Assembly (NCBI RefSeq): GCF_014205275.1
Contig: NZ_JACHND010000001.1
Location: 1,922,001 to 1,986,000, forward strand
Length of the DNA stretch: 64,000 nt
Direction: 5' to 3'
Source of the DNA: Sphaerisporangium siamense
GTDB lineage: Bacteria > Actinomycetota > Actinomycetes > Streptosporangiales > Streptosporangiaceae
In this document: one piece after another, positions 19,585 through 58,627 of the stretch
How positions within the stretch are numbered: position 1 is the first letter of the stretch
How the letters are laid out: each line of letters starts with the position of its first letter
Program-made: the position numbers and the translations under genes
Notes under the pieces: model-generated
Database searches by the model: none
The model's input: the letters and a program-made list of their open reading frames with translations, nothing else
Told to the model about the DNA's origin: nothing

Positions 19585-19611
19585 GCCCGTCGGGCGCGGC
19601 CGGCCACGCCG

Positions 19612-20625: not shown

Positions 20626-20671
20626 CAAGGACCTCCTTACCGCACGATCCTTGTCGAGAGTATGTCGAGAA

Positions 20672-41494: not shown

Positions 41495-41699
41495 GGCGAG
41501 GCCACGACGGCGGCCCGCGCGGCCGCCCGCACGAACGCCGTCGGCGCGCCTGACCTGGCCAAGGGCGCGGCCGATGGCGCCGATCTTGACGCCGGCCTTC
41601 CCCGTGCGGGCGCGGAACCCGTCCACTTCGCCCGGCGCCACCATCCGGGGGAAACCGGCGCGCAGGGGACGGCCGGCCATTTCCGTGGGGGTAACTCGG

Positions 41700-42857: not shown

Positions 42858-44316
42858 GCGGCCACCGGGCCTGGCCGCCCGGCTGAGGGAGATCGAGCTC
42901 TTCGCCGAGCTGTCCGACGAGCAGCTCGGCTGGCTCGCCGGGGTGGGCACGCACCAGAAGCTGGCCGACGGGGACGTGCTGTTCCACGAGAACGAGCCCG
43001 CCGGGCACTTCTACGTCCTGCTCGGCGGCGAGCTGCTGTTCACCAAGGTCTTCGGCGGCCAGGAGCACGTGCTCACCAAGCACATCGCCGAGTCGACCCC
43101 CGAGCCGCTGCTCGTGCAGTACGACGGCAAGCGGCGCGCGGCGCACCAGTTCACCGGCGAGCTTCCGCTGCTGACCGACAGCGGCTACATCGCCACCGCG
43201 ATCTCCGCGGGCGGCACCGAGCTGATGGCCTACGACAAGGCGACGTTCCTGGACATGCTCACCCGCTGCCCGGAGGTGAGCCGGGTGCTGCTGCCCGTGC
43301 TGGCCTGGCGCATCCGTACGGTGGAGCTGGAGGCCGGGCGCAACCGCATGCTGGAGGGCCTCGGCACGCTCGCGGCCGGGCTCGCGCACGAGCTGAACAA
43401 CCCGACGGCCGCGATGGTGCGGGCCGCGGGCGAGCTGCGCGGCACGGTGGGCGAACTGACGGACGCCGCCATGCGCTGGGGGCGGGTGGCGACGGCCTCG
43501 GAGCGGCGGCTGATCACCCGCGTCTGCGAGAGCCTGCACTCCGGCGCCGGCCCGGGACGCTCCATGGACGTGCTGGAGGCCGCCGAGATCGCCGACGAGG
43601 TGATGGAGTGGCTCTTCGCGCACGACATCGACCGCTACCAGGACATCGGCACGGCGCTGGTCGACCGCGGCCTCGGCATCGAGACCCTCGACGAGATCGC
43701 CGCCGGCGTGCGCCCGGAGGCGCTGGAGCCCGCGATCGGCTGCCTCGGCCTGATCGTGCAGGCAAGGACGATGGTCGAGGACGTCGCCGAGGCCGGGCGC
43801 CGCATCGAGGCGCTCGTGGACACCACCAAGGCGTACACCAACCTGGACCGCGCCCCCGTGCGGGACGTGGACCTGTGGGAGGGCCTGGAGGCGACGCTGG
43901 CGATGCTGGCGCCCCGGCTCAGCGGCGTGCGGGTGCGGCGGCACTACGGTGACGTCCCGCTGGTCACGGCGTATCCGAGCGAGCTCAACCAGGTGTGGAC
44001 CAACCTCATCGACAACGCGGTGGACGCGATGGAGGGCCTCGGCGAGCTGCGGATCAGCACCAAGGTCGAGGGGCACCACGCGCTGGTGGAGATCATGGAC
44101 AGCGGGCCCGGCATCCCGCAGGGCGTGCTGTCGCTGTTGTTCCAGCCGTTCTTCACCACCAAGGACACCGGCCGCGGCACCGGCCTCGGCCTGCACCTGA
44201 GCCGGTACATCGTGTCCCACCGGCACGGCGGCACGATCGACGTGACGTCCGTGCCGGGGGACACGCGGTTCCTCGTGCGGCTACCGCTGACGAGGCGTCA
44301 GCTCTCGGCGCGGTAG
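42850..44316 (+). CDS. Cyclic-nucleotide-binding-domain sensor histidine kinase
   Basis: 488 residues. Residues ~12-145 form a cNMP-binding/CRP-like beta-barrel (LFAELSDEQLGWLAGVG, GDVLFHENEPAGHFYVLLGG). A linker region follows with H-box LAAGLAHELNNPTAAM (His180). HATPase signatures are NQVWTNLIDNAVDAM (N box), IMDSGPGIPQG (G1) and FTTKDTGRGTGLGLHLSRYI. No membrane helix, so a cytosolic sensor. The barrel may bind a cyclic nucleotide or serve as a protein-interaction sensor; a full phosphate-binding cassette is not obvious. Translationally coupled to IS701-like protein 2. Its 3' end overlaps by 19 bp the convergent receiver-flavoprotein gene, the likely partner. Confidence 0.88.
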   Translation: MGERPPGLAARLREIELFAELSDEQLGWLAGVGTHQKLADGDVLFHENEPAGHFYVLLGGELLFTKVFGGQEHVLTKHIAESTPEPLLVQYDGKRRAAHQFTGELPLLTDSGYIATAISAGGTELMAYDKATFLDMLTRCPEVSRVLLPVLAWRIRTVELEAGRNRMLEGLGTLAAGLAHELNNPTAAMVRAAGELRGTVGELTDAAMRWGRVATASERRLITRVCESLHSGAGPGRSMDVLEAAEIADEVMEWLFAHDIDRYQDIGTALVDRGLGIETLDEIAAGVRPEALEPAIGCLGLIVQARTMVEDVAEAGRRIEALVDTTKAYTNLDRAPVRDVDLWEGLEATLAMLAPRLSGVRVRRHYGDVPLVTAYPSELNQVWTNLIDNAVDAMEGLGELRISTKVEGHHALVEIMDSGPGIPQGVLSLLFQPFFTTKDTGRGTGLGLHLSRYIVSHRHGGTIDVTSVPGDTRFLVRLPLTRRQLSAR

Positions 44317-45941
44317 CGGTGGATCATCGCGACGGCCATCGCGCCCTCGCCGACGCTTGAGGCGATGCGTTTGATGGACTTGGCCCGGGCGTCGCCGGCC
44401 ACGAAGACCCCGGGCATGCTGGTCTCCAGCGGCAGGGGCTCGCGGGGCAGGTCCCAGCCGTCGATCGACTTCCTGGGCCCGAGGTCCTGGCCGGTGACCA
44501 GGAAGCCGTGGCCGTCGCGGGCCACGGCGCCGTCGAGCCATTCGGTGCGCGGCCGGGCGCCGATGAACGTGAAGACGTACTCGGCGTCCTCGGTCACCTC
44601 CTCGCCGGTGTCGAGATCGCGCAGCGTGATGCTTTCGAGCCGGTCGTCGCCGTCCGCGGCCACCAGGATCGTCCGCGTCCGCACGTCGACGTTCGGCGCG
44701 CGGCGGATCTCGTCGATCAGGTACTGCGACATGCGCGACTCCAGGTCGCCGGCGCGCACGAGCATCGTCACGTGCCGGGCGTGCCGGGAGAAGTGCAGCG
44801 CCGCCTGGCCGGCGGAGTTGGCCCCGCCGACGATCCAGACGTGCTGCCCGGTGCACAGGGTGGTTTCCGAGAGGGTGGCGCCGTAGTAGATGCCGGCGCC
44901 CTCGAAGCGGCCGGCCCCCTCGGCGTCGAACCTGCTGTAGGACAGCCCGGGGCACAGCAGGACGGTCCCCGCGCTGATCTCCTTGCCGTCGGCCAGGTCG
45001 AGGATCACCGCGCGCCCGGCGCGCCGCAGGCGTACGGCCTCCATGGGCGCGAGCAGGTCGACGCCGAACCGGCGGGCCTGGGACACGGCCCGGCTGGTCA
45101 GCTCGACGCCGGAGATGCCCGACGGGAACCCCAGGTAGTTCTCGATCCTGCTGGACGAGCCCGCCTGGCCGCCGGGGACGTACGCCTCCACGAGCAGCGT
45201 GGACAGGCCCTCGGAGGCGGTGTAGACGGCGGCGGCGAGACCGGCGGGGCCCGCGCCGACGATGGCCACGTCGTAGTGCGGGTGTTTCACCTCCATGGCG
45301 AGGCCGAGCGCGGTCGCGAGCTGCCCGGTGGCCGGGGCGGCGAGCCGCCTGCCGTCGGGCAGCAGGACCACCGGCAGCTCGTCCGTCGGGATGTCCTGGC
45401 CGGACTCGGTGGCGTCCTGGAACTTGAAGGGCTGGCGGTGGCGGGTGAGAAAGTCGCGCACGCGATGGGTGGCGGGCGCGAAGGGCAGGCCGATGACGGT
45501 GATGCCGCCGTAGGGCGGCTCGTAGCTCGACTGCCAGTCGGCCAGCAGCTCGTCGAGCACGGGGTAGAGCCGTTCCTCGGGAGGGTCCCACGGCTTGATG
45601 AGGTAGTGGTCGAGCCGGACCTCGTTGATGGCGGCGATGGCGACGCTGGTGTCGGCGTACGCCGTCAGGAGCACCCGGCGCGCCGAGGGGAAGCGGTCCG
45701 CGGCGGCGGCGAGCAGTTCGATGCCGGTCAGCTCCGGCATGCGCTGGTCGGAAAGGACCAGCGCGGGTTCCTCGTTGCGGTTGATCAGGGAGTCGAGGAT
45801 CTGGATCGCCTCGGCGCCCGATCCGGAGGTGAGAACGCGATAGCGGCCCTGGTAGGCCCGGATCAAGTCACGACGTATGGCTCTCAGCACGTGGGGGTCG
45901 TCGTCCACGGCGAGCACGACCGGGCGGTGCGGCTCAGGCAT
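44298..45941 (-). CDS. Response-regulator receiver fused to a thioredoxin-reductase-like flavoprotein without CxxC
   Basis: 547 residues. Residues 1-~130 are an intact receiver (Asp13-15, phospho-acceptor Asp65 in LVLSDQRMPE, Lys116 in YLIKPWD). About 140-215 resembles a glutaredoxin-like fold but has FAPATH in place of CxxC. Residues ~220-540 are a pyridine-nucleotide-disulfide reductase fold with AIVGAGPAGLAAAVY, WIVGGANSAGQAAL and PGVFVAGDARAKSIKRI. Where thioredoxin reductases carry CATC this protein has YYGATLSETTL, so no dithiol chemistry is expected. The flavoprotein may act as a redox/NADPH sensor or diaphorase controlled by phosphorylation. GGAG lies ~8 nt before ATG. It is convergent with the histidine kinase and divergent from the DJ-1/GlgX operon. 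Confidence 0.88.
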   Translation of the reverse strand: MPEPHRPVVLAVDDDPHVLRAIRRDLIRAYQGRYRVLTSGSGAEAIQILDSLINRNEEPALVLSDQRMPELTGIELLAAAADRFPSARRVLLTAYADTSVAIAAINEVRLDHYLIKPWDPPEERLYPVLDELLADWQSSYEPPYGGITVIGLPFAPATHRVRDFLTRHRQPFKFQDATESGQDIPTDELPVVLLPDGRRLAAPATGQLATALGLAMEVKHPHYDVAIVGAGPAGLAAAVYTASEGLSTLLVEAYVPGGQAGSSSRIENYLGFPSGISGVELTSRAVSQARRFGVDLLAPMEAVRLRRAGRAVILDLADGKEISAGTVLLCPGLSYSRFDAEGAGRFEGAGIYYGATLSETTLCTGQHVWIVGGANSAGQAALHFSRHARHVTMLVRAGDLESRMSQYLIDEIRRAPNVDVRTRTILVAADGDDRLESITLRDLDTGEEVTEDAEYVFTFIGARPRTEWLDGAVARDGHGFLVTGQDLGPRKSIDGWDLPREPLPLETSMPGVFVAGDARAKSIKRIASSVGEGAMAVAMIHRYRAES

Positions 45942-46221: not shown

Positions 46222-47046
46222 ATGCCGCGCAATATCCTTATCATTCTCTCCGAGTACGGGTACTGGGGAGAGGAACTTCTGGGGCCGCTGACCACATTCG
46301 ATGAACGTGGATATCAGAGCGTCTTCGCCACCCCCACGGGCAAGCGCCCGCGGGCCCTGCCCCCGAGCCTCGACCCCGGCTACGTCGACCCGCCTCTCGG
46401 GCGGCCGGTCACCACGCCCGAGGTCGCCGTGGCCGCCCGCCTGCTGGACGAGTCCGACCGCCTCGACGCCCCGCTCAGCCTCGCCGAGTGGATCCCTGAC
46501 CGGCCGTACTTCAGCGAGCAGAACTTCATCCGCAAGATCGAGGCCTACTACCGGGACATCGCCCGGCTGGACGAGGACGTCAAGCAGTACGACGCGCTGA
46601 CCATCGTCGGCGGCAGCGGCCCGATCGCCGACATGGCGAACAACGGCCGGCTGCACGAGCTGATCCTCGCCTTCCTGCGGGCCGGCAAGCCCATCCTCGC
46701 CGAGTGCTACGGCGTCGCCTGCCTGGCCTTCGCCCGTGACTGGGAGTCCCGCCAGAGCATCCTGTGGGGCAAGCACGTCACCGGCCACTGCAAGGAGTAC
46801 GACTACAAGGACGGCACCGGCTTCGTCGGCGTGGACTTCAACATGGGCCCGCCGCCGTACCCCCTGGAGTACATCCTCCGCGACGCCACCGGGCCCGACG
46901 GCCGCTACCACGGCAACGTCGGCAAGGAGACCTCGGTCATCGTGGACTACCCGTTCGTCACCGGACGCTCGACCCCCGACTCGTTCCTGTCGGGCCAGAA
47001 GCTCGTCGAGGTCCTGGAGTCCGGCCTGCGGCGCTACGGCTGGTGA
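46222..47046 (+). CDS. DJ-1/PfpI (Hsp31-like) family protein
   Basis: 274 residues. Core features are ILIILSEYGYWGEELLGPL at the N-terminus, DALTIVGGSGPIADMANN before the nucleophile elbow, and ILAECYGVACLAF with Cys162 as the expected reactive Cys. The middle insertion (LDPGYVDPPLG, RPYFSEQNFIRKIEAYY) and the extra C-terminal region resemble the Hsp31/glyoxalase III branch. Such proteins act as glyoxalases, deglycases or stress chaperones. AGGAG precedes the ATG. It starts a rightward run of seven stress/carbohydrate genes, 57 bp before a fusion protein that carries a second DJ-1 domain. Confidence 0.85.
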   Translation: MPRNILIILSEYGYWGEELLGPLTTFDERGYQSVFATPTGKRPRALPPSLDPGYVDPPLGRPVTTPEVAVAARLLDESDRLDAPLSLAEWIPDRPYFSEQNFIRKIEAYYRDIARLDEDVKQYDALTIVGGSGPIADMANNGRLHELILAFLRAGKPILAECYGVACLAFARDWESRQSILWGKHVTGHCKEYDYKDGTGFVGVDFNMGPPPYPLEYILRDATGPDGRYHGNVGKETSVIVDYPFVTGRSTPDSFLSGQKLVEVLESGLRRYGW

Positions 47047-47103
47047 TCACCATGACCTTGCCGCGCCGGTTCTCGTCGACCTCGTGCTGACGTGAGGTGC
47101 ACC

Positions 47104-49734
47104 ATGAGTGAGAAGCGTTTGGAAGGCTGCACTGTCGCGATACTGATGGAAAGCGACTACGTCGAGCCTGAGATCAACTACTACCAGCGCAGGTTCGTCG
47201 AGGAAGGTGCGCGGGTCGAGTTCCTCACACGGCTGTGGGGCCAGAAGTCGATCACCTTCCACGGCCACGAGTACCAGAACCCGTTCACCGTGTCCGGCGA
47301 CCTGGAGGCGGTGGACGACGACAAGCTCGACGAGTACGACATGTTCATCGTGCCGGCCGGCATGGTGTCCGACCGCCTGCGCTACACCGAGGACGTCCAC
47401 CAGCTCGCGCCGGCCGTCCAGCTCCTGCGCAGGGCGTTCGAGCGGCCGAAGCTGCTGAAGGGCATCATCTGCCACGGCCTCTGGCTGGCGGCCCCGATAC
47501 CCGAGGTCGTGCGGGGACGCCGTGTGACCTGCCACAACAACCTGATCGGCGACGCCCGCAACATGGGCGCGATCTACACCGACCAGGACGTCGTGGTCGA
47601 CGGGGACCTGGTCACCGGGCGCAGCTTCAACCAGTGCCACCTGTTCGCCCGCATGATGATCGACCTGGTCGCCGCCGCCCGCGCGCCCCGCGGGGCGCTG
47701 GTCACGGCGGGCGCGGGCACGGCCCCGCTGACGGCGGGCGGGCTCCCGGCGCGCGAGATCGCCGGCGGCGCGAACGGGTCCAACGGGTCCAACGGATCCA
47801 ACGGGTCCAACGGGTCCAACGGGTCCGCGACGGTGACCCCCGAGCTGGTCGCCCCCCAGGACAACGGGCGTGCCGTGCTGGAGCGCGCGGCGCCCGCGCG
47901 CCCGCCCGGCTACCACCCCGACTTCACCTTCTCGGACCTGGTCGCCGGCTACATCACCGGCTACGACCCGGCCCGCGACACGATCGACCTCAAGACCAAC
48001 GAGGGCAAGGCCGTCCAGGTGCGTCTCACCTCGACGACCTCGGCCGAGTTCCTGCGTAACCTCGGCGAGCCGTACGTCGACGCCACCGGCCACCTGGACG
48101 AGCTGCTCAAGCCCGGCGGGTACCTGTTCGCGTACGGCGTCTACTATCCCGAGCACGGCGCGTACACCTTCGAGGCCAAGCGCCTGGTCTTCCTCGGCAG
48201 GCAGGCCGGCGACTACAACTTCGAGCGGCCCGACTGGTGGGTGCGCCAGCTCGGCTCGCTCGCCAGGTTCTACAGGAAGGCGCAGTTCGGCGAGGGCGGC
48301 CCGATCGACTACACCGCCTACCGCACCGCGCTGCGTCTCGGGGGAGAGAAGACCCTGAACGCCAAGGGCGTGCAGGAGACCGACACGATCTCGCGCCTGA
48401 CCTACGGCATGGCCTCGGCCTACATGCTGACCGGCGACGAGGACTTCCTGGAGGTCGCCGAGCAGGGCACGCAGTACCTGCGCGACCACATGCGCTTCGT
48501 CGACCGCGACGAGGACGTCGTCTACTGGTACCACGGCATCGAGGTGCGCGAGGGCACCGAGCACAAGCTCTTCACCTCGGAGTTCGGCGACGACTACGAC
48601 GCGATCCCGATGTACGAGCAGATCTACGCGCTGGCCGGGCCCATCCAGCTCTACCGGCTGACCGGCGACCCGCGGATCCTCGCCGACGCCGAGGGCACGC
48701 TGCGCCTGTTCCGCAAGTTCTTCCGCGACCCCGAGCAGGGCGGCTGGTACTCGCACGTCGACCCGATCCTGCTCAGCCCGCACCACGAGTCGCTCGGGCC
48801 GAACCGGTCGAGGAAGAACTGGAACTCGGTGGGCGACCACGCGCCGGCCTACCTCACGAACCTGTACCTGGCCACGGGCGACCCCCGGCACGCGGAGATG
48901 CTGGAGGAGACGTTCGACCTGATCGTCAAGCACTTCCCGCAGGCCGGCAGCCCGTTCGTGCAGGAGCGCTTCCACGCCGACTGGTCGGCCGACCGCACCT
49001 GGAACTGGCAGCAGGACCGGGCCGTCGTCGGGCACAACCTGAAGATCGCCTGGAACCTGATGCGGATGATGGCGGTCAACCCCAAGGACGGCTACCGGCA
49101 GCTCGCCACCGAGATCGGCAGGAAGATGCCGCAGGTCGGCGCCGACCCGCAGCGCGGCGGCTGGTACGACGTCGTGGAACAGCACCTGCAGGAGGGCCAG
49201 GAGCTCCACCGGTTCGTCTGGCACGACCGCAAGGCGTGGTGGCAGCAGGAGCAGGCGATCCTCGCCTACCAGATCCTGGCCGGCCACACCGGCGACCCGG
49301 AGTTCCGGCGCAGGGCCCGGGAGGCCTCGGCGTTCTACAACGCCTTCTTCCTGGACCACGACGAGGGCGGCGTGTACTTCAACGTCCTGGCCAACGGCCT
49401 GCCCTACCTTCTGGGGAACGAGCGGTCCAAGGGCAGCCACTCGATGAGCATGTACCACGGCGCGGAGCTGTGCTTCCTCGCCACGGTCTACGAGCGCCTG
49501 CTGCTCGACGACGAGCCGCTGACCCTGCACTTCCGCCCCAACCCCGACGGCTTCACCGACCGCGTCCTGCGGGTCGCGCCGGACGCGCTGCCGCCGGGCC
49601 GGGTGCGGCTGGACTGGGTGGAGGTGGACGGCTCCCCGTACCAGGCCTTCGACGCGGCGGCGATGACCGTGAAGCTGCCCGACTCGAAGTCGCACCTGCG
49701 GGTCCGCGCCCACCTGTCGCCCGTGAGTGACTAG
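47104..49734 (+). CDS. DJ-1/PfpI domain fused to an N-acylglucosamine 2-epimerase-like domain
   Basis: 876 residues. Residues 1-~190 are DJ-1/PfpI (VAILMESDYVEPEINYYQRR, FIVPAGMVSD, IICHGLWLAA with Cys123). A linker (~200-260) contains six N-G-S repeats. A small domain (~268-368, DFTFSDLVAGYITGYDPARD) follows, and ~370-860 is an alpha/alpha barrel of the AGE/cellobiose-epimerase type (YWYHGIEVREG, DRAVVGHNLKIAWNLMRM, GSHSMSMYHGAEL). The barrel His/Glu positions are typical of sugar isomerases. ATG 47104 has AGG 6 nt upstream. The fusion ties an aldehyde/protein repair fold to sugar isomerisation, matching the debranching enzyme downstream. Reaction unproven. Confidence 0.82.
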   Translation: MSEKRLEGCTVAILMESDYVEPEINYYQRRFVEEGARVEFLTRLWGQKSITFHGHEYQNPFTVSGDLEAVDDDKLDEYDMFIVPAGMVSDRLRYTEDVHQLAPAVQLLRRAFERPKLLKGIICHGLWLAAPIPEVVRGRRVTCHNNLIGDARNMGAIYTDQDVVVDGDLVTGRSFNQCHLFARMMIDLVAAARAPRGALVTAGAGTAPLTAGGLPAREIAGGANGSNGSNGSNGSNGSNGSATVTPELVAPQDNGRAVLERAAPARPPGYHPDFTFSDLVAGYITGYDPARDTIDLKTNEGKAVQVRLTSTTSAEFLRNLGEPYVDATGHLDELLKPGGYLFAYGVYYPEHGAYTFEAKRLVFLGRQAGDYNFERPDWWVRQLGSLARFYRKAQFGEGGPIDYTAYRTALRLGGEKTLNAKGVQETDTISRLTYGMASAYMLTGDEDFLEVAEQGTQYLRDHMRFVDRDEDVVYWYHGIEVREGTEHKLFTSEFGDDYDAIPMYEQIYALAGPIQLYRLTGDPRILADAEGTLRLFRKFFRDPEQGGWYSHVDPILLSPHHESLGPNRSRKNWNSVGDHAPAYLTNLYLATGDPRHAEMLEETFDLIVKHFPQAGSPFVQERFHADWSADRTWNWQQDRAVVGHNLKIAWNLMRMMAVNPKDGYRQLATEIGRKMPQVGADPQRGGWYDVVEQHLQEGQELHRFVWHDRKAWWQQEQAILAYQILAGHTGDPEFRRRAREASAFYNAFFLDHDEGGVYFNVLANGLPYLLGNERSKGSHSMSMYHGAELCFLATVYERLLLDDEPLTLHFRPNPDGFTDRVLRVAPDALPPGRVRLDWVEVDGSPYQAFDAAAMTVKLPDSKSHLRVRAHLSPVSD
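47773..47826 (+). repeat. In-frame 9-bp tandem repeat encoding (Asn-Gly-Ser)6
   Basis: Six copies of AACGGGTCC (the third is AACGGATCC) encode the flexible linker between the DJ-1 and AGE parts. The near-identity at DNA level makes copy-number variation by slippage likely. Confidence 0.9.
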
Positions 49735-49742
49735 GAGTGGCG

Positions 49743-50078
49743 ATGCAACTCCGCACGGAACTGCGCGACGACGTCACGATCATCGCGCTCGAAGGATCCC
49801 TGGACAGCCGGACGGCGCCCCAGGTGCAGCAGGAGATCGAGGCGTTGTTCCCCGACCACGGGCTGGTGCTGCTGGACCTGAGCGGCACCAGCTACATGTC
49901 CAGCGCCGGGCTGCGCGTGCTGCTGCTCGTGTACCGCAGGGCCCAGGCGGGCACGGCGCGCCTGGCGCTCACCGGGGTCCCGGACGAGGTGCGCGAGATC
50001 ATGGCGGCCACCGGGTTCCTCGACTTCTTCACCGTCGCCGGGTCGGTGGAGGACGGCGTCAAGGCGTTGACGGTATGA
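49743..50078 (+). CDS. STAS-domain anti-sigma factor antagonist 1
   Basis: 111 residues. A full STAS fold: VTIIALEGSLDSRTAPQVQQ, LVLLDLSGTSYMSSAGLRVL with Ser54 at the position phosphorylated in SpoIIAA/RsbV, then ARLALTGVPDEVREIM. It would bind the RsbW-like kinase when unphosphorylated. ATG 49743 (AGGAG 5 nt before) is preferred over GTG 49737. The gene starts 8 bp after the fusion gene and overlaps GlgX (ATGA). Confidence 0.9.
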   Translation: MQLRTELRDDVTIIALEGSLDSRTAPQVQQEIEALFPDHGLVLLDLSGTSYMSSAGLRVLLLVYRRAQAGTARLALTGVPDEVREIMAATGFLDFFTVAGSVEDGVKALTV

Positions 50079-52156
50079 CGGCACACCAGGCCATCGAGCG
50101 CATCGACGCCTACCCGACGCGCAGGATCGCGGGATTCCCGGTACGCGCCGGGCGGCCGCTGCCGTTCGGCGCGACACCGGTGCCCGGCGGTGTCAACTTC
50201 TCCGTCTACTCCAACAACGCGACCGGGATGACGCTGGTGCTCTACCGGGCCGGCGAGCCGGAGCCCATGGCCGAGCTGCCGTTCCCGGACTCCTTCGTCA
50301 TCGGGGGCGTCTACGCGATGACGGTGTACGACCTCGACGCGGAGGGCATCGAGTACGGCTACCGCGCGGAGGGTCCCTTCGACCCCGAGCGCGGCCACCG
50401 GTTCGATCCCACGGTCGTGGTCGCGGACCCTTACGCCCGGTTGATGAGCGACGCCCGCACGGGGCCGCGGCGGTCACGGGTGGCCCTGGACGACTTCGAC
50501 TGGGAGGACGACAGGCCGCTGCGCCTGCCGCACGAGGATCTGGTCGTCTACGAGCTCCACGCGCGCGGCTTCACCCGTGACCCCTCCTCGGGGGTCACGG
50601 CGCCGGGCACGTACGCGGGGCTCGTCGAGAAGATCCCGTACCTGCGGGAGCTCGGCGTCAACTGCGTCGAGCTCCTGCCGGTCTTCGAGTTCGACGAGAA
50701 CGACAACCCCCGCGCGCATCCGGTCACCGGCGAGCCGCTGGCGAACTACTGGGGGTACAACACGGTCGGCTACTTCGCGCCCAAGGCGTCCTACGCCTCG
50801 ACGGGCCGGTTCGGGATGCAGGCCGACGAGTTCAAGAACCTCGTCAAGCAACTGCACCGGGCCGGCATCGAGGTCATCCTGGACGTGGTGTTCAACCACA
50901 CCGCCGAGGGCAACGAGTACGGGCCCACGATCTCGTTCAAGGGCCTGGACAACGCGACGTACTACATGCTCACCCCGGACGGGCACTACTACAACTTCAG
51001 CGGCACCGGCAACACGCTGAACTGCAACAACCCCGTGGTCCGCGGCTTCGTGCTCGACTGCCTGCGCTACTGGGCGTCGGAGTTCCACATCGACGGCTTC
51101 CGGTTCGACCTGGCCGCGATCCTCGGGCGCGGGCCCGACGGCGCGCTGCTGGCCAACCCGCCGCTGCTGGAGACGCTGGCCTACGACCCGGTGCTGCGCG
51201 ACTGCAAGCTGATCGCCGAGGCGTGGGACGCGGCCGGGCTCTACCAGGTGGGCAGCTTCCCGAACTACTGCCGCTGGTCGGAGTGGAACGGCCGCTACCG
51301 CGACACCGTGCGCCGGTTCGTCAAGGGCGACACCGGCGTGACGGGCGACCTCGCCACCCGCATGGTCGGCTCGCCGGACATGTACGCCCAGCGGGGGACC
51401 TCGGCGACGGTGAACTTCGTGCTGTGCCACGACGGGTTCACGCTCAACGACCTGGTGTCCTACAACGGCAAGCACAACGAGGCCAACGGCGAGGACAACA
51501 GGGACGGCGACAACAACAACCAGTCGTGGAACTGCGGGGTGGAGGGGCCGACCGACGATCCGGAGATCCTGGCCCTGCGCGCCCGGCAGATGCGCAACGT
51601 CTTCATGATCCTGCTGGCCAGCCAGGGCGTGCCGATGATCCTCGCCGGGGACGAGGTCGGGCGCACCCAGCAGGGCAACAACAACGCCTACTGCCACGAC
51701 AGCTCGCTGACGTGGTTCGACTGGAGCCTGGTCGAGCGCAACGCCGACCTGCTGCGCTTCGTGCGGCGCGCGATCGCCTTCCGCCAGGCCCACCCGGTCC
51801 TGCGGCGCGGTCCCGCCTCCGAGGTGAGCTGGCACGGCGTGCGGGCCTGGACGGCCGACTGGTCGGAGCACTGCCGGCTGATCGCCGGCATGTTCGGCAC
51901 CGGCGCCGGCGACAGCGTGTACGTCGCCGCGAACGCCCACTGGGAGGGCCACCTCCTGGAACTGCCGGAGCCTCCCCAGGGGACGGCCTGGCACCTGTTC
52001 GCCGACACCGCGGCGCCGCCGCCGTTCGACGCCCACGAACCGGGCGCGGAGCCCGTGCTGCCGGACCAGACGCACGTGGAGGTGGGCCCGCGCGCCGTCG
52101 TCGTCCTGGTCGCTCACAGCCAGGCGGACCAACGAGACAACGGGAAGGAGGAGTGA
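50075..52156 (+). CDS. glgX: Glycogen debranching enzyme GlgX/isoamylase-type
   Basis: 693 residues. An N-terminal CBM48-type domain (GATPVPGGVNFSVYSNNATG) precedes a GH13 barrel with YWGYNTVGYFAPKASY, nucleophile Asp345 in HIDGFRFDLAAIL, acid/base Glu382 in CKLIAEAWDAAGLY and Asp453 in LCHDGFTLNDLVSYN. The C-terminal beta domain completes the usual ~700 length. It hydrolyses alpha-1,6 branches of glycogen or limit dextrins in the cytoplasm. The ATG overlaps STAS 1, and its stop overlaps STAS 2 by one base (TGATG). No glgB, treY/treZ or other glycogen gene is adjacent, so its embedding among signalling genes is unusual. Confidence 0.92.
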   Translation: MTAHQAIERIDAYPTRRIAGFPVRAGRPLPFGATPVPGGVNFSVYSNNATGMTLVLYRAGEPEPMAELPFPDSFVIGGVYAMTVYDLDAEGIEYGYRAEGPFDPERGHRFDPTVVVADPYARLMSDARTGPRRSRVALDDFDWEDDRPLRLPHEDLVVYELHARGFTRDPSSGVTAPGTYAGLVEKIPYLRELGVNCVELLPVFEFDENDNPRAHPVTGEPLANYWGYNTVGYFAPKASYASTGRFGMQADEFKNLVKQLHRAGIEVILDVVFNHTAEGNEYGPTISFKGLDNATYYMLTPDGHYYNFSGTGNTLNCNNPVVRGFVLDCLRYWASEFHIDGFRFDLAAILGRGPDGALLANPPLLETLAYDPVLRDCKLIAEAWDAAGLYQVGSFPNYCRWSEWNGRYRDTVRRFVKGDTGVTGDLATRMVGSPDMYAQRGTSATVNFVLCHDGFTLNDLVSYNGKHNEANGEDNRDGDNNNQSWNCGVEGPTDDPEILALRARQMRNVFMILLASQGVPMILAGDEVGRTQQGNNNAYCHDSSLTWFDWSLVERNADLLRFVRRAIAFRQAHPVLRRGPASEVSWHGVRAWTADWSEHCRLIAGMFGTGAGDSVYVAANAHWEGHLLELPEPPQGTAWHLFADTAAPPPFDAHEPGAEPVLPDQTHVEVGPRAVVVLVAHSQADQRDNGKEE

Positions 52157-52476
52157 TGGCATTCAAGGCGAAGATGCAGATCGAGGACGGCACCGCGACC
52201 ATCAGGCTCGAAGGCGAGCTCGACGGCCGCTCGGCCCCCGAGCTCAACGACCTGGTCGTCAAGGCCGCCGAGCAGCATGTGGACCGGCTCGTGCTGCTGC
52301 TGGAGGAGCTGACCTACATGTCCTCTGCGGGCATCCGCTGCCTGGTGTTCGCGCACCAGAAGATGCCGGAGGACGCCGAGATCATATTGGTGGGCACCCG
52401 GCTCGACGTGGCGGAGACCATCAGGCTGACCGGCTTCGACCGCAGCATCGTGATGCGGGAAACCTTGGAGGCGTGA
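52156..52476 (+). CDS. STAS-domain anti-sigma factor antagonist 2
   Basis: 106 residues: ATIRLEGELDGRSAPELNDL, RLVLLLEELTYMSSAGIRCL with Ser57 at the phosphorylation position, EIILVGTRLDVAETIRLTG. It is preceded by a perfect AAGGAGGA. It is only moderately similar to STAS 1, so the two probably differ in partner or signal. Start overlaps the GlgX stop, and its own stop overlaps the RsbW-like ATG. Confidence 0.9.
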   Translation: MAFKAKMQIEDGTATIRLEGELDGRSAPELNDLVVKAAEQHVDRLVLLLEELTYMSSAGIRCLVFAHQKMPEDAEIILVGTRLDVAETIRLTGFDRSIVMRETLEA

Positions 52477-52943
52477 TGGCGGGATGCCGGCTCAAGGTCG
52501 ACGGCGCCGGCGGGTCCATCGCCGGGCCGGTCGCGGATTTCGTCGGGGCTCTGGCCGAGCGGGCCGGGCTGGGCAGACGCCCGGCCTACTGGCTGCGGCT
52601 GGCCGCCGACGAGATCACCACCAACATCGTGCAGCACGGTTACCGGGGGCGCTGCGGTGTGGTGGATCTTGAGGGCGGCATCGAGGCGGGCGCGCTGTGG
52701 CTGTGCATAGAGGACGACGCGCCCGCCTTCGATCCCCGGAGATACGATCCCGCCCCGCGTCTCGCCGTCCCGTTGCCCGTGCGCGAGCAGGGCGGATACG
52801 GCTTGATGCTCGCGATCGGCAAGGTGGACGAATTCAGATATCAGTACGTCGGGGGGCGCAACCGCAACACGTTGATCATGCGGCTGACCGGTTCCGGCGA
52901 AGCACATGGAGGGGTCGATGCCGAACGCGCTGGTGGTGTTTGA
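52476..52943 (+). CDS. RsbW/SpoIIAB-like anti-sigma serine kinase (HATPase_c_2)
   Basis: 155 residues. GHKL ATPase motifs: LAADEITTNIVQHGY (Glu46, Asn50), WLCIEDDAPAFDP (G1-like) and REQGGYGLMLA (G2-like). Such kinases phosphorylate STAS partners and hold a sigma factor or other target. ATG 52476 follows GGAGG. Its last 26 bp overlap the phosphatase gene. No sigma factor lies in the window, so the target must be encoded elsewhere or be an enzyme. Confidence 0.9.
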   Translation: MAGCRLKVDGAGGSIAGPVADFVGALAERAGLGRRPAYWLRLAADEITTNIVQHGYRGRCGVVDLEGGIEAGALWLCIEDDAPAFDPRRYDPAPRLAVPLPVREQGGYGLMLAIGKVDEFRYQYVGGRNRNTLIMRLTGSGEAHGGVDAERAGGV

Positions 52944-54180
52944 GACCGAGACGGGCGTGCCGAAGGTGGTGGCCGAGCTGCGCGAGGTGCTCCGCGCCGA
53001 CGGCTTCGACGTCACCTACAGCACTCCGGACGATCTGCCGATGCGCCCGGAGCAGGCGCCGCCGGACATCCTGCTGGTGTCCGCCTCGCTCGGCCTGCAA
53101 CGCGTCGCGCTCGTCGGCCAGCACTTCATGGTCGACGGGCGCACGCCCACCATCATCGCGTTCCCGGAAGACGACCTGGACGCGCTGGAGGAGTGCGTGG
53201 AGGGCGGGTTCGACTACATCACCCCGCCCTTCCGCCGCAAGCTGTTGCGCAGCCGCATGGAGTCCTGCCAGGAGAGATCCGCGCTCAGCACCACCGTGGA
53301 AGAGATGGCCGCGCTCGCGAGCCTGCGGGAGTACGAGCGCGACCTGCACATAGCCCGTGAGATCCAGTCGGGGTTCCTGCCCGAGCACCTGCCCACGCCG
53401 GACGGCTGGGAGGTCGGGGCGCGCTTCCGGCCCGCCCGTCAGGTCGCCGGCGACTTCTACGACGTCTTCACGATCGTCAACGGCCGCAGGCTGGCCTTCA
53501 TCGTGGCCGACGTCTGCGACAAGGGCATCGGGGCCGCGCTGTTCATGGCGCTCATCCGGACGCTGCTGCGGCACACCGCCGAGCACACCGGGGCGTCCCG
53601 CCTGGTCGAGGACGAGTTCCTGGTGTCGATGGACGGGGAGGGCGTGGGCGGGTCGGCGGCGCCGCTGCTGTCCCTGGGGGCGGGCCCCCTGGTCCAGGCG
53701 ATCCTCGGCACCAACCGGTACATGGCGCGCAACCACCTGAAGCAGGGCTACTTCGCGACCATGTTCTTCGGGGTCCTGGACCCGGTCTCGGGCGTGGTCC
53801 TCTACATCAACGGCGGCCACAACCCGCCGGTGGTGGTCCACGCCGACGGCAGGCGGAGCATGCTCCCGCCCACCGGACCGGCCGTGGGCATCCTCCCCGA
53901 CAGCTCCTACACCCTGGGGTACGTCCAGCTCGACCAGGGCGACACCCTGTTCGCCTACACCGACGGCGTCGTGGAGGCCCGGGACACGCAGGGCGGCCTG
54001 TACGGCACGCCCAAGCTGCTGGACCTTCTGGAGGCCAACAGGGGGCGGGACGTGGAGGGGCTGCTGGCGGAGGTGGACACCTCGGTGCGGCACTTCGCGA
54101 GCCACGCCGAGCAGAGCGACGACATCACCACCCTGGCCCTGCGCCGCGTCCCGCCGGGCGGGATCGCCGCGGCGAGGTGA
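52918..54180 (+). CDS. SpoIIE/RsbU-type PP2C phosphatase with N-terminal pseudo-receiver
   Basis: 420 residues. Residues ~1-115 look like a receiver (GFDYITPPFRRKLLRSRM resembles its alpha4-beta5 end), but beta3 ends in DILLVSASLG, with Ser/Ala where a phospho-acceptor Asp would be. A coiled linker (EYERDLHIAREIQSGFLP) precedes the phosphatase domain with RQVAGDFYDVF, IVADVCDKGIGAALFMA, LYINGGHNPP and LFAYTDGVVEARD, giving the metal-binding Asp residues. It should dephosphorylate the STAS proteins. ATG 52918 follows GGAGG at 5 nt. The operon ends at the hairpin 54192-54247. Confidence 0.92.
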   Translation: MPNALVVFETETGVPKVVAELREVLRADGFDVTYSTPDDLPMRPEQAPPDILLVSASLGLQRVALVGQHFMVDGRTPTIIAFPEDDLDALEECVEGGFDYITPPFRRKLLRSRMESCQERSALSTTVEEMAALASLREYERDLHIAREIQSGFLPEHLPTPDGWEVGARFRPARQVAGDFYDVFTIVNGRRLAFIVADVCDKGIGAALFMALIRTLLRHTAEHTGASRLVEDEFLVSMDGEGVGGSAAPLLSLGAGPLVQAILGTNRYMARNHLKQGYFATMFFGVLDPVSGVVLYINGGHNPPVVVHADGRRSMLPPTGPAVGILPDSSYTLGYVQLDQGDTLFAYTDGVVEARDTQGGLYGTPKLLDLLEANRGRDVEGLLAEVDTSVRHFASHAEQSDDITTLALRRVPPGGIAAAR

Positions 54181-54191
54181 GGAAGCGGTAC

Positions 54192-54247
54192 CCACGAGAA
54201 GACCCCGGCCCGGGAGGCGAGCCTCCCGGGCCGGGGTCTTCTCGTGG
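54192..54247. terminator. Perfect 26-bp hairpin terminator between convergent operons
   Basis: Bases 54192-54217 are exactly complementary to 54222-54247 around a CGAG loop, 11 bp after the phosphatase stop and 4 bp before the PKS stop. It is the strongest inverted repeat noticed in the window and can terminate in both directions. Confidence 0.85.
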
Positions 54248-54251
54248 CGGG

Positions 54252-57200
54252 TCAGGTCTGCTCGGCGGGCACCGCGGCGGCGGTCACCGCCTCGTACAGG
54301 TCCCCGGCGAGCAGGCCGATCGGCCGGGCGCCCAGCAGGTCGCCGACCCTCACCTCCACGGACAGGTCCGCCTTGATCCGCGCGCACAGCTTGGCGGCGA
54401 GCACCGAGTCCAGGCCGTGCAGGCTGAGGGACACCTCCGGGTCGAGCTGGTCGGGCGGCAGGCCGAGGAACTCGGCGAACCGCAGCATCAGGTACTGGCG
54501 GAACGCCTCCGGCGAGGAGGTCGCGAGGTCCGCGCCGTCGTAGGCCACGCCGGGCCGCTCGGGGGCCGCCGCCTCGAACACCGGCTCGGCCACGGGCGCC
54601 GGCATCGTGTCCTCCGGCAGGTCGATCCAGAAGCGCTTACGCTGCCACGGATACAGGGGAAGGGGCACGAACTTGCCCCCGGCGTAGAGGTGGTCCCAGT
54701 CGGGCTCACAGCCCCGCACGTACGCCGACGCGAGGGCGTGCAGCAGGCACTCCAGCTCCGGCTCCCCGCGGTGCAGCGAGGGGACGGCCGTCGCGTCCGC
54801 GCCCGCGGCCGCGATCTCGTCCTCGATGACGGCGCTCAGCAACGGGTGCGGGCTGATCTCGACGAACAGCGTGGGCGACCCCTCGGCCAGCACCGCGCGG
54901 ATCGCCGCGGCGAACAGCACCGGGCGGCGCAGGTTCTCCATCCAGTACTCCGCGTCCAGCTCCGCGCCGTCGACGACCCGGTTGAGCAGCGTGGAGTGCA
55001 GGGGAACCCTCCCCGCCCTGGGCCGCAGCGCGGACAGCGCCTCCAGCAGGGCCGGGCGCACGGGCTCGACCTGCGGGGCGTGCGAGGCGTAGTCCACCTG
55101 CACCTGCCGGCAGAACACGCCCTGCCGGCGCAGCGGCTCGATCACCTCGGCCAGCGCCTCGGGCGCGCCCGCGAGCACGCACGACCGCGCGCTGTTGACC
55201 ACGCCCACGCAGACCTGGTCGGCGTGCTCGCCGATCGCCTCGCGGGCCTGCCGCTCGTCGAGCTGCACGACCCACATCGCGCCCGTGCCCGCGAGCCCGT
55301 CCAGCAGGGCGCTCCTGCGGCAGACCACCGCCGCGCCCTGGCGCACGGTGAGGGCGCCGGCGGCGGTCGCGGCGGCGATCTCGCCCATGCTGTGGCCGAT
55401 GAGCAGGTCCGGTGTGATGCCCCAGTCCCCCCAGACGGCGGCCAGCGAGACCTGGAACGCCCACAGCGCGGGCTGGACCTCGCCGGTGGCCGTCATCGGC
55501 GTGTCGTCGCGCAGCCGCTCGATGACCGACCAGCCCAGCTCCTCCTGGATCGCCCGGTCGCACTCGCGCATGCGCCGCGCGAACGCCCGGTTCCGGTCCA
55601 GCAGCTCCCGGCCCATGCCGACCCACTGCGCTCCCTGGCCGGGGAAGACGAACACCACCCGGGACGGCCCCGACGCGCGCTGCGCGCCGCCGGCCACCGA
55701 CTGAGGGAACGCTCCAGAACCGTACGCCCGCAGGGACGCGGCCACCTTCTCGACGCCCCCCACGACGGCGAGCCGGTGCTCGTGATGGCTCCTGCGCCGG
55801 CCCGCGCTGTAGCAGACGTCGCGCAGGTCGGCGCCCGGGGCGTTCAGCGCCTCGGCGTAGCGCAGCGCCAGCCGCCGCAGCGCCTGGCCGTCCCTGGCCG
55901 ACAGGGGCAGCAGGAACGGCCCGGCGCCCGGCCGGCGCCGCGGGGTCTCCGCGGTGGCGGGCGCCTCCGCGAGCACGACGTGCGCGTTCGTCGCGGACAG
56001 CCCGAACGAGCTGACGCCGGCCATCGCGGGCCCCGGCTCGTCCGGCCAGGGCTGGGTGCGCATGACGGGCCGCAGCGGCGCGCCGGGCTCGTCGAACAGC
56101 GGATGCGGTTGTTTCACGTGGAGCGTCGCGGGGATGGTCTTGTGCTTGAGCGCGAGCGCCGCCTTCACCAGGCCGACCAGCCCGGCCGCGCCCTCACCGT
56201 GGCCGATGTTGGACTTCGCCGACCCCACCAGGCAGGGCCGCTCCGGCCCCCGGCCTTCGCCCATGACGCGGCTGAGCGCGACCAGCTCGGTGTAGTCGCC
56301 CCGCGGCGTCCCCGGGCCGTGCGCCTCGACATAGGCGACCTGCCCCGGTGACACGCCCGCGTCCTCGTAGGCGTCCCGCAGCATGGCCTCCTGGCCGTCC
56401 ACGCCCGCGGCGATGAGCGTGCCCGAGCCCCGGCCGTTGCTGTTGACCGCCGTCCCGATGATCGTGGCGTAGATCCGGTCGCCGTCGGCCATCGCCCGGG
56501 ACAGCGGCTTGAGTATCACGCTGACGGCGGCCTCGCTGCGCACGTACCCGTCCGCGCCCGCGTCGCCGAACCTGCTGCGGCCGGTGGGGGAGAGGACGCC
56601 CGCGTCGGCCAGGCTGAGATACAGGTCCGGGGCCAGCAGCAGGTTCACGCCGGCCACGACGGCCAGCGTGCTCTGCCCGGTCCACAGCTCCCGGCACGCC
56701 AGGTGGACGCCGAGCAGCGAGGTCGAGCAGGTCGCCTCCAGGCCCATGCTGGGGCCGCGCAGGTCGAAGAGGTAGGAGATGCGGCCCGCGAGCGTGCCCC
56801 AGTTGCCGGCGCCGACCGCGGCGTGCATGTCGTACAGCCCGGCCCTGCGGAGGATGTCCCAATAGTCGGACGGCAGGCAGCTCGTGTAGACGGCGGTCCT
56901 GCTTCCCGCCAGCCGGGACAGCGGGATCCCCGCGTCCTCGACGGCCTCGGCGGTGACCTCGATCAGGAGGCGGTGCTGCGGGTCGATGCGCAGCGCCTCG
57001 TGCGGAGAGATGGAGAAGAAGGAGGCGTCGAACTTGTCGACGTCCTCCAGGAAACCTCCGGCCCGTGCGGCGACGCGGTCCCACCACTCCCCGGTGGCCT
57101 GGTCCAGGCCGCCGGAGGGGAACCGGTCGGTGGGGATCTCCCCCACGGTGCAGCACTCGCCGGCCAGGACGTCCCAGAACGCGGACACGTTCGGGGCGCC

Positions 57201-57263
57201 CGGCAGCCGGCACGCCGCGCCGATGATGGCGATGGGATCTCGGGGACTGGTGGTGCTGTTCAT
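54252..57263 (-). CDS. Single-module type I polyketide synthase (KS-AT-ACP)
   Basis: 1003 residues. The ketosynthase (~8-430) has Cys179 in GLEATCSTSLLG and His315/His355 in VEAHGPGTPRGD and KSNIGHGEGAAG. The acyltransferase (~535-830) has Ser625 in IGHSMGEIAA and YASH at 725-728, the motif usually linked to methylmalonyl-CoA. The acyl carrier (~915-990) has Ser953 in HGLDSVLAAKL. There is no ketoreductase, dehydratase or thioesterase, and no N-terminal docking helix. The KS context ATCSTS differs from the usual DTACSSS. It makes one extension or works iteratively. Start overlaps the upstream ATPase stop (ATGA), with GGAGG before the ATG. Confidence 0.92.
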   Translation of the reverse strand: MNSTTSPRDPIAIIGAACRLPGAPNVSAFWDVLAGECCTVGEIPTDRFPSGGLDQATGEWWDRVAARAGGFLEDVDKFDASFFSISPHEALRIDPQHRLLIEVTAEAVEDAGIPLSRLAGSRTAVYTSCLPSDYWDILRRAGLYDMHAAVGAGNWGTLAGRISYLFDLRGPSMGLEATCSTSLLGVHLACRELWTGQSTLAVVAGVNLLLAPDLYLSLADAGVLSPTGRSRFGDAGADGYVRSEAAVSVILKPLSRAMADGDRIYATIIGTAVNSNGRGSGTLIAAGVDGQEAMLRDAYEDAGVSPGQVAYVEAHGPGTPRGDYTELVALSRVMGEGRGPERPCLVGSAKSNIGHGEGAAGLVGLVKAALALKHKTIPATLHVKQPHPLFDEPGAPLRPVMRTQPWPDEPGPAMAGVSSFGLSATNAHVVLAEAPATAETPRRRPGAGPFLLPLSARDGQALRRLALRYAEALNAPGADLRDVCYSAGRRRSHHEHRLAVVGGVEKVAASLRAYGSGAFPQSVAGGAQRASGPSRVVFVFPGQGAQWVGMGRELLDRNRAFARRMRECDRAIQEELGWSVIERLRDDTPMTATGEVQPALWAFQVSLAAVWGDWGITPDLLIGHSMGEIAAATAAGALTVRQGAAVVCRRSALLDGLAGTGAMWVVQLDERQAREAIGEHADQVCVGVVNSARSCVLAGAPEALAEVIEPLRRQGVFCRQVQVDYASHAPQVEPVRPALLEALSALRPRAGRVPLHSTLLNRVVDGAELDAEYWMENLRRPVLFAAAIRAVLAEGSPTLFVEISPHPLLSAVIEDEIAAAGADATAVPSLHRGEPELECLLHALASAYVRGCEPDWDHLYAGGKFVPLPLYPWQRKRFWIDLPEDTMPAPVAEPVFEAAAPERPGVAYDGADLATSSPEAFRQYLMLRFAEFLGLPPDQLDPEVSLSLHGLDSVLAAKLCARIKADLSVEVRVGDLLGARPIGLLAGDLYEAVTAAAVPAEQT

Positions 57264-58627
57264 GCGGCCTCCACTCCGCCTGTGACGTTCGGTCTCCCGT
57301 GGCCGGTGAGCATCGAGATCGCGACAGCGACGTCCCACCCCGAGCCCTGCTCGCCGCCGTGGAAGTCGCTCGCCAGGAAAGTCGCCTCGCCGGACCTGCC
57401 GGCCAGGAGCAGCGCGTCGATGAGACACGCCGTTATGTAGGGCGCCAGCCATGGGGGTCCGGCGTCGGCTCCGCCGGTGCCGAGTGCCAGCGCCCGTCGT
57501 AAATGGAAGACGGCCTGCTGCGGGTCGGCGCCGATCGTCGCCGTCGCCCGCGCGGCGTGCACGAACATGGCCGTCTCCCGGTCGTCGCGGTCGAGGCCCC
57601 CGATCCCTTCGGAACCGTCGGACCCGCGGCCGGTGACTGCCTGGATCCAGGAGCGGTAGGCGAGGTAACGCCCTCCGGGCCGGGGGCCGCGCAGCAGGGC
57701 GGCCTTGAGCAGGAACTCCTCTGCCGCCGCGGGCTCGCCCAGGCCGAACGCCAGGGCCATCGCCTTCGCCAGCGCGAGGTGCGGGGTCGTCTCGACCGTG
57801 TCGGTCGGCAGCGAGTCCAGGAAGACGAGGACGTCCCCGGTCCTGCCGTGGAGCAGCAGCAGGTGGGCGAGCACCGGGGCGACCATCTCCCCGGCGCCGC
57901 ACCACACGGCCGCCTTGCACAGTTCGTGGGCCCGTTCGAGCGACAGCTCGTACCAGGCCCGCGTCGCCGCCTTGGAGAGCAGGGCGAGCGACCCGCGCGT
58001 CTCCCCGCCGATCCAGGTGCTCACCTCCCGGAACTCCCACAGATTGTTGCGGCGCACGAAGTGGACACCGAGGTCGCAGGCGCCGATCAGCTCATGGAGC
58101 AGCGCCGGGTTCCCCCCGGAAGCGGCGTGCAGGGCCTCGGCCGTGGCATGGCGCACATGCCCCCCGACGACGTCGGCCAGCAGCGTCGTCACCTCGTCCA
58201 GGCTCAGCGGCGGGACGTGCACGTTGCGCCGGTGCGGCTCGAACCGCAGGCTGTCCGCCGGGTCCGGCTGCGGGACCGTGCCCGCGGGCGCGGTCGTGAC
58301 CAGGAGCGTTCCAGCCCCGCGCCGGCAAAGGTCGCGGAGCGTCAGCAATGTGGCGTGGTCGCTGAGGTGCGCGTCGTCGACCACCAGAAGCAGACGGCGT
58401 CCGTCCGCCTCCGGGATCCGGGCCGCGACCCCCGTGGGGCCGGCCGGCACCTCGAAACGGACGATCTCGTAACCCTCGGCCTCCGAGGACACGAGCGCCC
58501 GTTCGAGGAGCGCGGTACGCCCCACACCTCTTTCCCCCTCGATGATGATCGGACCTGGCACCCGGGCCCCCAGTGACGCGCGGATGCTTTCCAGCTGTCG
58601 ATTCCGGCCCACGAAATTCCACTGCAT
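57260..58627 (-). CDS. LAL-like AAA ATPase without a DNA-binding domain
   Basis: 455 residues. The N-terminus FVGRNRQLESIRASLG and the ATPase motifs (GERGVGRT at 31-38, LLLVVDDAHLSD at ~80-90) are those of large LuxR (LAL) regulators. But the Walker A Lys is Arg37, and the protein stops where the helical region would continue toward a C-terminal LuxR HTH, about half the usual length. It may be a truncated regulator or a dedicated accessory protein. Translational coupling to the PKS (ATGA) argues for retained function. AAGGGGG precedes the ATG. Confidence 0.75.
   Translation of the reverse strand: MQWNFVGRNRQLESIRASLGARVPGPIIIEGERGVGRTALLERALVSSEAEGYEIVRFEVPAGPTGVAARIPEADGRRLLLVVDDAHLSDHATLLTLRDLCRRGAGTLLVTTAPAGTVPQPDPADSLRFEPHRRNVHVPPLSLDEVTTLLADVVGGHVRHATAEALHAASGGNPALLHELIGACDLGVHFVRRNNLWEFREVSTWIGGETRGSLALLSKAATRAWYELSLERAHELCKAAVWCGAGEMVAPVLAHLLLLHGRTGDVLVFLDSLPTDTVETTPHLALAKAMALAFGLGEPAAAEEFLLKAALLRGPRPGGRYLAYRSWIQAVTGRGSDGSEGIGGLDRDDRETAMFVHAARATATIGADPQQAVFHLRRALALGTGGADAGPPWLAPYITACLIDALLLAGRSGEATFLASDFHGGEQGSGWDVAVAISMLTGHGRPNVTGGVEAA

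Follow-up and report, generated by a model that had tools for sequence, protein, structure and literature searches.

The locus described here lies in a 64,000-nucleotide stretch of the Sphaerisporangium siamense genome (hereafter the window; contig NZ_JACHND010000001.1, positions 1,922,001 to 1,986,000; the genome has 8.5 Mb). Between window positions 46222 and 54180, an operon on the forward strand combines sugar enzymes with the parts of a partner-switching signalling system. Its first gene (46222-47046) encodes a DJ-1/PfpI-like protein (ThiJ_like PF17124, 1.5e-15), and the second (47092-49734, starting at GTG 47092 or ATG 47104) a fusion of a DJ-1 domain (PF01965, residues ~15-190) to an AGE, or GlcNAc 2-epimerase-like, enzyme (PF07221) that is 92% identical to its S. 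album counterpart. They are followed by an anti-sigma-antagonist-like protein, STAS1 (49737-50078); a GlgX-type debranching enzyme of an operon-specific subfamily (50075-52156); a second anti-sigma-antagonist-like protein, STAS2 (52156-52476, or from GTG 52153); an RsbW/SpoIIAB-like serine kinase with a HATPase_c_2 domain (52473-52943); and a SpoIIE/PP2C phosphatase with an N-terminal pseudo-receiver (52906-54180). The STAS proteins were assigned by domain match and the STAS tree, and GlgX by TIGR02100 and the GlgX tree. The initial annotation had placed GlgX between two STAS genes, with the kinase and phosphatase after them and the DJ-1 protein and DJ-1-AGE fusion upstream, and every gene it named was found there on the forward strand. 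It had also taken the genes to be made together, and the gene-to-gene spacings (45 bp, 2 bp, -4, -1, -4 and -38 bp, in operon order) fit co-expression of the switch with the carbohydrate enzymes. A terminator-like hairpin on the same strand closes the operon (54193-54246; -59.4 kcal/mol, z -9.3, 25-bp stem).

Judged by gene content and order, the operon is an actinomycete version of the icfG cluster of the cyanobacterium Synechocystis and so not of an undescribed kind. The accessible portions of the published accounts (PMC12329169, PMC8670252) list slr1855 as an N-acetylglucosamine 2-epimerase, slr1856 and slr1859 as STAS proteins, slr1857 as an isoamylase/GlgX, slr1860 as the IcfG phosphatase and slr1861 as the kinase. 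S. siamense has the same contiguous, same-strand set of AGE, STAS, GlgX, STAS, PP2C phosphatase and RsbW-like kinase, with STAS1, GlgX, STAS2, the kinase and the phosphatase in the positions of Slr1856, Slr1857, Slr1859, Slr1861 and IcfG/Slr1860; Synechocystis PCC 6803 was compared through its published gene order, not by sequence. The initial annotation had recognized no described system of this arrangement. Since the icfG cluster has published kinase and phosphatase biochemistry and carbon phenotypes, the idea of a novel system was dropped after the match. Our literature search, with subscription papers mostly outside its reach, returned no report of an icfG-type cluster beyond cyanobacteria and none of an AGE-STAS fusion in the text that was accessible.

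The spread of the operon across genomes is patchy. The fusion-protein query matched 17 of 200 genomes of the host's order and the AGE part 2 of 396 genomes of a phylum sample (the host itself included in both), while an AGE profile matched 26 of 292 cyanobacterial genomes (centre genome included). A scan of GTDB contigs gave at least 586 pattern matches, at least 559 of them relatives, and the best 80 were used; by title these comprised 74 actinomycetes, 5 cyanobacteria and one Trueperaceae metagenome-assembled genome (MAG). Among these best 80 loci GlgX was adjacent in 78 and the kinase and the phosphatase each in 68, while 64 loci have the complete set with two STAS genes; a match to the first DJ-1 gene of at least 200 bits lay on the same strand within 9 kb of AGE in 70. 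The full set was present in 14 of 27 further AGE-bearing loci (26 from 25 of the 26 cyanobacterial genomes and one from genome G551), and some gene absences in these locus counts reflect contig ends. Within the order, 16 of the 17 AGE genomes (host included) carry DJ-1b, AGE, STAS1, GlgX, STAS2, kinase and phosphatase together, DJ-1b and AGE being counted separately; the S. siamense gene order is kept in 13 of the 16, and in three the phosphatase has been relocated upstream. The seventeenth genome, G073, has no STAS1, kinase or phosphatase in its stretch. Such sharing goes beyond chance. A separate first DJ-1 gene was seen in 14 of 16 fetched stretches, and DJ-1b and AGE share one frame in 11 of the 109 related loci scanned (2.19 Mb, two loci without AGE and a few overlapping). 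The co-occurrence search proposed in the initial annotation thus shows an operon that is kept in other genomes, with a gene order not unique to S. siamense. Among side observations, a thiamine-pyrophosphate enzyme lies between the two DJ-1 genes in some related clusters, where S. siamense has only 45 bp, and EthD and SnoaL-like genes occur near related clusters of both phyla (coordinates of these extra genes: L030:3355-4971, L036:1730-2503, L037:1104-1523 and L187:2860-5082).

Phylogenetic trees were inferred by quick searches with a single support measure (SH-aLRT), and some rows were flagged for long branches or odd composition. In the GlgX tree (53 rows) the operon copies form one group of 38 rows with support of 100, made up of 20 actinomycete and 17 cyanobacterial copies and that of the Trueperaceae MAG, all downstream of AGE. 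The host's two other GlgX proteins, cyanobacterial stand-alone copies and copies preceding fused AGE genes (see below) fall outside it. The operon GlgX is therefore set apart from a canonical housekeeping enzyme by its own group, although it passes the TIGR02100 cut-off (675 bits against 641). In the STAS tree (76 rows, built on a short alignment), STAS1 (25 rows, support 86) and STAS2 (33 rows, support 96, fused ones included) each form a cross-phylum group, and the host's 18 other STAS domains stand apart (support 80). By these trees and one of AGE, the operon GlgX, AGE, STAS1 and STAS2 all group with cyanobacterial operon copies; host paralogues were included for GlgX and STAS only.

The phospho-Ser columns of the STAS proteins, the kinase N box, the PP2C aspartates, the GlgX acids and the AGE histidines are kept in nearly all aligned rows, which include a few duplicate loci. 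The catalytic role of the residues so named, that of the AGE histidines included, is presumed. The column of STAS1 Ser56 is serine in 65 of 68 actinomycete and 19 of 19 cyanobacterial rows (duplicates included), the three catalytic acids of GlgX are conserved in the operon copies, and N-box residues E47 and N51 of the kinase are invariant in 85 rows and, separately, in 24. The operon thus has the motif set of SigB- and SigF-type switches, namely a phosphorylatable STAS serine, N-box Glu and Asn, and the PP2C aspartates. At the level of sequence, then, the genes, their co-linearity, their orthology with cyanobacterial operon copies and the intact catalytic and phospho-acceptor residues are all in evidence. 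In one Streptosporangiaceae MAG the kinase and phosphatase occupy a single open frame (L053:14473-16341).

In the phosphatase model (pLDDT 90.1) the N-terminal domain is receiver-like and is followed by a long helix and then the PP2C domain, with 3f7a and 3eq2 (RssB) as the top Foldseek matches. None of the 34 actinomycete phosphatase rows has the receiver's phospho-acceptor Asp, the residue there being S, A, P, N or Y, and the domain is therefore not phosphorylatable. Of three cyanobacterial cluster phosphatases scanned with Pfam, two carry GAF-GAF or PAS domains and the third no further Pfam domain; with a pseudo-receiver in the actinomycete phosphatases, the input domain thus varies by exchange from lineage to lineage. 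The AGE part (pLDDT 88.9) is modelled as a 2-epimerase fold to which an N-terminal beta region is added; with its conserved active-site histidines it is a predicted 2-epimerase. Its best PDB matches are glucose 2-epimerase 8h1l and cellobiose 2-epimerase 3wkf (best E 2e-18), and matches ranked 1-25 have TM scores of 0.72-0.88 (by target length) at 15-20% identity.

The most informative variants of the operon come from cyanobacteria. In ten loci, representing nine distinct genomes, a single open frame encodes AGE with STAS2 at its C-terminal end, and in both fusion examples scanned by Pfam the AGE and STAS domains scored above cut-off. The fused AGE sequences form one clade (support 99) nested within cyanobacterial operon AGE. 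STAS1, kinase and phosphatase were lost together in all nine fused clusters, and none of the nine genomes yielded an orthologue when searched with a profile of the operon kinase (best score 60 bits; five without a match at 1e-10), compared with 170-197 bits in seven of seven unfused genomes. The phospho-Ser column of the nine fused STAS2 domains reads Thr in four, Asp in three, Ala in one and Ser in one. A similar state was reached in a separate lineage by an actinomycete (G073), where STAS2 is retained, unfused, after GlgX and has Pro in the phospho-Ser column; STAS1, kinase and phosphatase were not seen in its 15-kb stretch, and the kinase profile had no match in the genome at 1e-28. A STAS2-specific motif was considered as a docking site, being present at first in 24/25 STAS2, 8/8 fused, 0/25 STAS1 and 0/18 other sequences, and was dropped because it held in just 69/103 STAS2 rows and looser forms overlapped a run of STAS1 residues. 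One further genome has a second AGE copy (L173, G723:C72) in a 722-aa frame, similar in length to the AGE-STAS2 fusions, along with a reduced, unfused cluster (L195).

Gene presence was then compared over 115 distinct AGE loci, 103 of which have at least 7.3 kb downstream; presence was counted on the AGE strand only, and given the relatedness of the genomes the counts reflect few events. STAS2 was present in 101 of the 103 and STAS1 in 87. In the two loci without STAS2, AGE either matches in two separated pieces (L200, with STAS2 elsewhere beside GlgX and the kinase, L297) or is very divergent (L201). Ten loci have STAS2 without same-strand STAS1, kinase and phosphatase: eight fused ones, and L086 and L108 from Saccharothrix strain ALI-22-I, which has three AGE clusters in all. 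Five loci keep kinase and phosphatase without STAS1, and two of the five (L060, L195) have lost GlgX too. In a reciprocal search with the kinase, 16 of the order's 200 genomes matched, all among the 17 with AGE and in the same cluster, and 19 of the 292 cyanobacterial genomes matched, four of them without AGE; in three of these four the stretch contains STAS1 but not STAS2. These patterns suggest that STAS1 tends to accompany the kinase and phosphatase, and STAS2 tends to accompany AGE. The stronger statement that AGE is the most constant member was retained only within what the reciprocal kinase search supports.

The initial annotation had centred its interpretation on GlgX, with the switch directly gating this enzyme and hence glycogen breakdown. 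The position of GlgX between two STAS genes with overlapping ends, its operon-specific subfamily with intact catalytic acids, and one AGE-less cyanobacterial locus with the kinase that keeps STAS1-GlgX (L294) speak for this account. Against these stand the host's two other GlgX proteins, which outscore the operon copy on TIGR02100, and two loci, one actinomycete (L060) and one cyanobacterial (L195), that retain AGE-STAS2-kinase-phosphatase without GlgX and STAS1. The GlgX of the fused clusters, where it is in the tree, belongs to another clade and is located before AGE. Control centred on GlgX is therefore weakly supported, and direct gating of GlgX seems to us improbable. The operon GlgX as sole debranching enzyme is ruled out, there being three GlgX proteins in the genome. 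What stands of the earlier interpretation is a complete switch, laid out for joint expression with the carbohydrate enzymes and without a sigma gene, that is conserved elsewhere; its novelty and its focus on GlgX do not.

A patchy distribution also fits horizontal transfer, and the signalling and enzyme genes could be passengers of one transferred cassette, co-transcribed and serving unrelated ends. The recurrence of one gene set across actinomycetes, cyanobacteria and a Trueperaceae MAG, the fusion of AGE to two different kinds of partner, and the joint loss of STAS1 with kinase and phosphatase in 9/9 fused clusters all speak against this, and we consider it very improbable.

A more substantial alternative is the classical one, in which the kinase would be the anti-sigma factor for a remote SigB/F-family sigma, both STAS proteins would act as antagonists and the enzymes would be co-regulated cargo. 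A sigma profile was built from six host SigB/F/G-like genes, with leave-one-out controls recovering 6/6. It found no SigB/F/G-type sigma gene in the window or at any of the 109 related loci, bearing out the remark in the initial annotation that no sigma factor is present. The target sigma factor is thus not encoded with the switch, as it is in SigB- and SigF-type systems, although this is compatible with one encoded elsewhere, and two SigB/F/G-family genes score above the model cut-off in the host genome. GTTT-N13-17-GGGTA, which we take to be a SigB-like promoter consensus, had no match in the window, a weak test as only exact matches were considered. The standard motifs of the kinase and both STAS proteins suit the remote-sigma account; it leaves unexplained the AGE-STAS2 fusion and why STAS2 is kept where kinase and phospho-Ser are gone. 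It also has support from Synechocystis, where, in the accessible text of the report, Slr1861 phosphorylates Ssr1600, Slr1856 and Slr1859, binds SigC and together with Ssr1600 controls it (PMC12329169). We regard this alternative as plausible, if on the doubtful side.

The surroundings of the operon offer a possible input. Divergent from it lies a gene for a response regulator fused to a thioredoxin-reductase-like flavoprotein (RR-TrxR; 44298-45941, reverse strand, start ATG 45941), adjoined by a gene for a histidine kinase with a cNMP-binding domain (42850-44316, forward strand). RR-TrxR genes 48-53% identical to this one are common (124 of the order's 200 genomes match at 1e-120), and a copy of the more common type, at G000:C1:5159788, is distinct from the operon-side gene. 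A closer subfamily (at least 59% identity) occurs in only 11 of the 200, comprising 10 of the 17 operon genomes and 1 of the 183 others (G030), and the ten operon genomes carry it within ~11 kb of AGE. A similar RR-TrxR and histidine kinase pair lies 3' of AGE-STAS2 on the same strand in five of the nine fused clusters. Since these two genes belong to the recurring neighbourhood, the left edge of 46222 drawn in the initial annotation was too narrow. Such an operon-dedicated paralogue suggests a redox input. Other nearby features are a DDE-superfamily transposase-like gene directly before the histidine kinase (41574-42857), a large convergent open reading frame at 54252-58040 (reverse strand), type I polyketide synthase-like by eye only, and a gene for a nucleotidyltransferase-domain protein with hexapeptide repeats at 62323-63783 (reverse strand).

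The reading we propose, on which we are evenly divided, is that in this icfG-type partner switch, produced along with sugar enzymes of its own, STAS2 would be an output arm that docks on AGE and so gates reducing-sugar processing. Docking is inferred from the STAS2-AGE fusion with its loss of kinase and phospho-Ser, and from the parallel case of G073. The kinase would phosphorylate both STAS proteins, with the PP2C phosphatase reversing this on STAS1, as has been reported for the Synechocystis counterparts only. STAS1, kinase and phosphatase would then form a switching core that sets the state of STAS2, the presumed output arm on the 2-epimerase-like AGE, while the dedicated GlgX could supply oligosaccharide to the AGE step. 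The kinase may also bind a sigma factor encoded elsewhere, in the way that Slr1861 holds SigC, and redox-related input could enter through the histidine kinase and RR-TrxR pair and the pseudo-receiver of the phosphatase. More tentatively, at somewhat less than an even chance, it would be unphosphorylated STAS2 that binds and directly controls AGE as the primary output of the switch, the sigma link seen in cyanobacteria being secondary, and some cyanobacteria would have hard-wired this output by fusion, discarding kinase, phosphatase and STAS1. According to the accessible text of the Synechocystis studies, IcfG dephosphorylates Slr1856 and not Slr1859 (PMC12329169, PMC11619594). In favour of the proposed reading, in low carbon with glucose the loss of icfG or slr1859 hurts growth while that of slr1856 does not, so that the poorer substrate, Slr1859, is nevertheless the one whose loss impairs growth (PMC11619594).

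Several observations weigh against the proposed control of AGE by STAS2. Because the Synechocystis kinase is an anti-SigC factor, as far as the accessible text of PMC12329169 goes, at least one arm of the switch has a sigma output there. The fused AGE sequences form a single clade and therefore point to one evolutionary event, not nine; the Thr of four fused STAS2 domains may still be phosphorylated, and a STAS domain fused to an enzyme may have another role. Because all 115 loci were found through AGE, its constancy is partly a product of selection, a bias that the reciprocal kinase search relieves only in part. The kinase occurs with STAS2 in the absence of AGE and STAS1 at one locus (L293) and lies far from AGE in two genomes (G745, G787). 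In Saccharothrix ALI-22-I the third cluster (L064) has kinase and phosphatase, and its kinase may act in trans on L086 and L108. An Actinoplanes locus (L078) that the one-strand count recorded as lacking kinase and phosphatase has AGE-STAS1-GlgX-STAS2 on one strand, and 5 kb away the opposite strand bears STAS1-STAS2-kinase-phosphatase in convergent orientation (18948-21384). Finally, the close RR-TrxR is missing from 7 of the order's 17 operon genomes, and its pairing with a histidine kinase was not in the stretch at four of the nine fused clusters.

Work on the icfG cluster has so far treated it as a carbon regulator of cyanobacteria, and its combination of enzymes with signalling proteins lacks an explanation. 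The existence of an orthologous operon in heterotrophic actinomycetes means that the basic job of the cluster does not depend on CO2 fixation, and the AGE-STAS2 fusion, with its kinase loss, points to a definite and testable function for the second STAS protein. Non-sigma outputs of partner switches are known; direct partner-switch control of a sugar-metabolising enzyme would, if true, be new to our knowledge.

Comparison with characterized systems places the operon among several relatives. With RsbU-RsbV-RsbW-SigB and SpoIIE-SpoIIAA-SpoIIAB-SigF it has in common a kinase, a STAS phosphoprotein, a PP2C phosphatase and the conserved catalytic motifs, but it differs from both in having two STAS proteins, interleaved enzyme genes and no sigma gene. 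The phosphatase resembles RssB/HsbR of Pseudomonas aeruginosa in its receiver fold, long helix and PP2C domain, whereas the aligned actinomycete operon phosphatases lack the receiver's phospho-acceptor Asp. The predicted fold of the operon AGE is shared with AGE-superfamily 2-epimerases such as glucose 2-epimerase Runsl_4512 and the cellobiose 2-epimerases, to which it adds extra N-terminal and C-terminal beta regions and a fusion to DJ-1 in S. siamense or to STAS in some cyanobacteria. The closest relative is the icfG cluster (slr1852-slr1862), which has the same gene set, with matching order over slr1855-slr1861. In S. siamense, however, the host is a heterotrophic actinomycete, to which the icfG role in the inorganic-carbon response cannot transfer directly; the kinase precedes the phosphatase, AGE is fused to DJ-1, and a divergent RR-TrxR gene and histidine kinase lie alongside. 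The phosphatase input differs as well, with a pseudo-receiver in place of the GAF-GAF or PAS domains of the two cyanobacterial cluster phosphatases.

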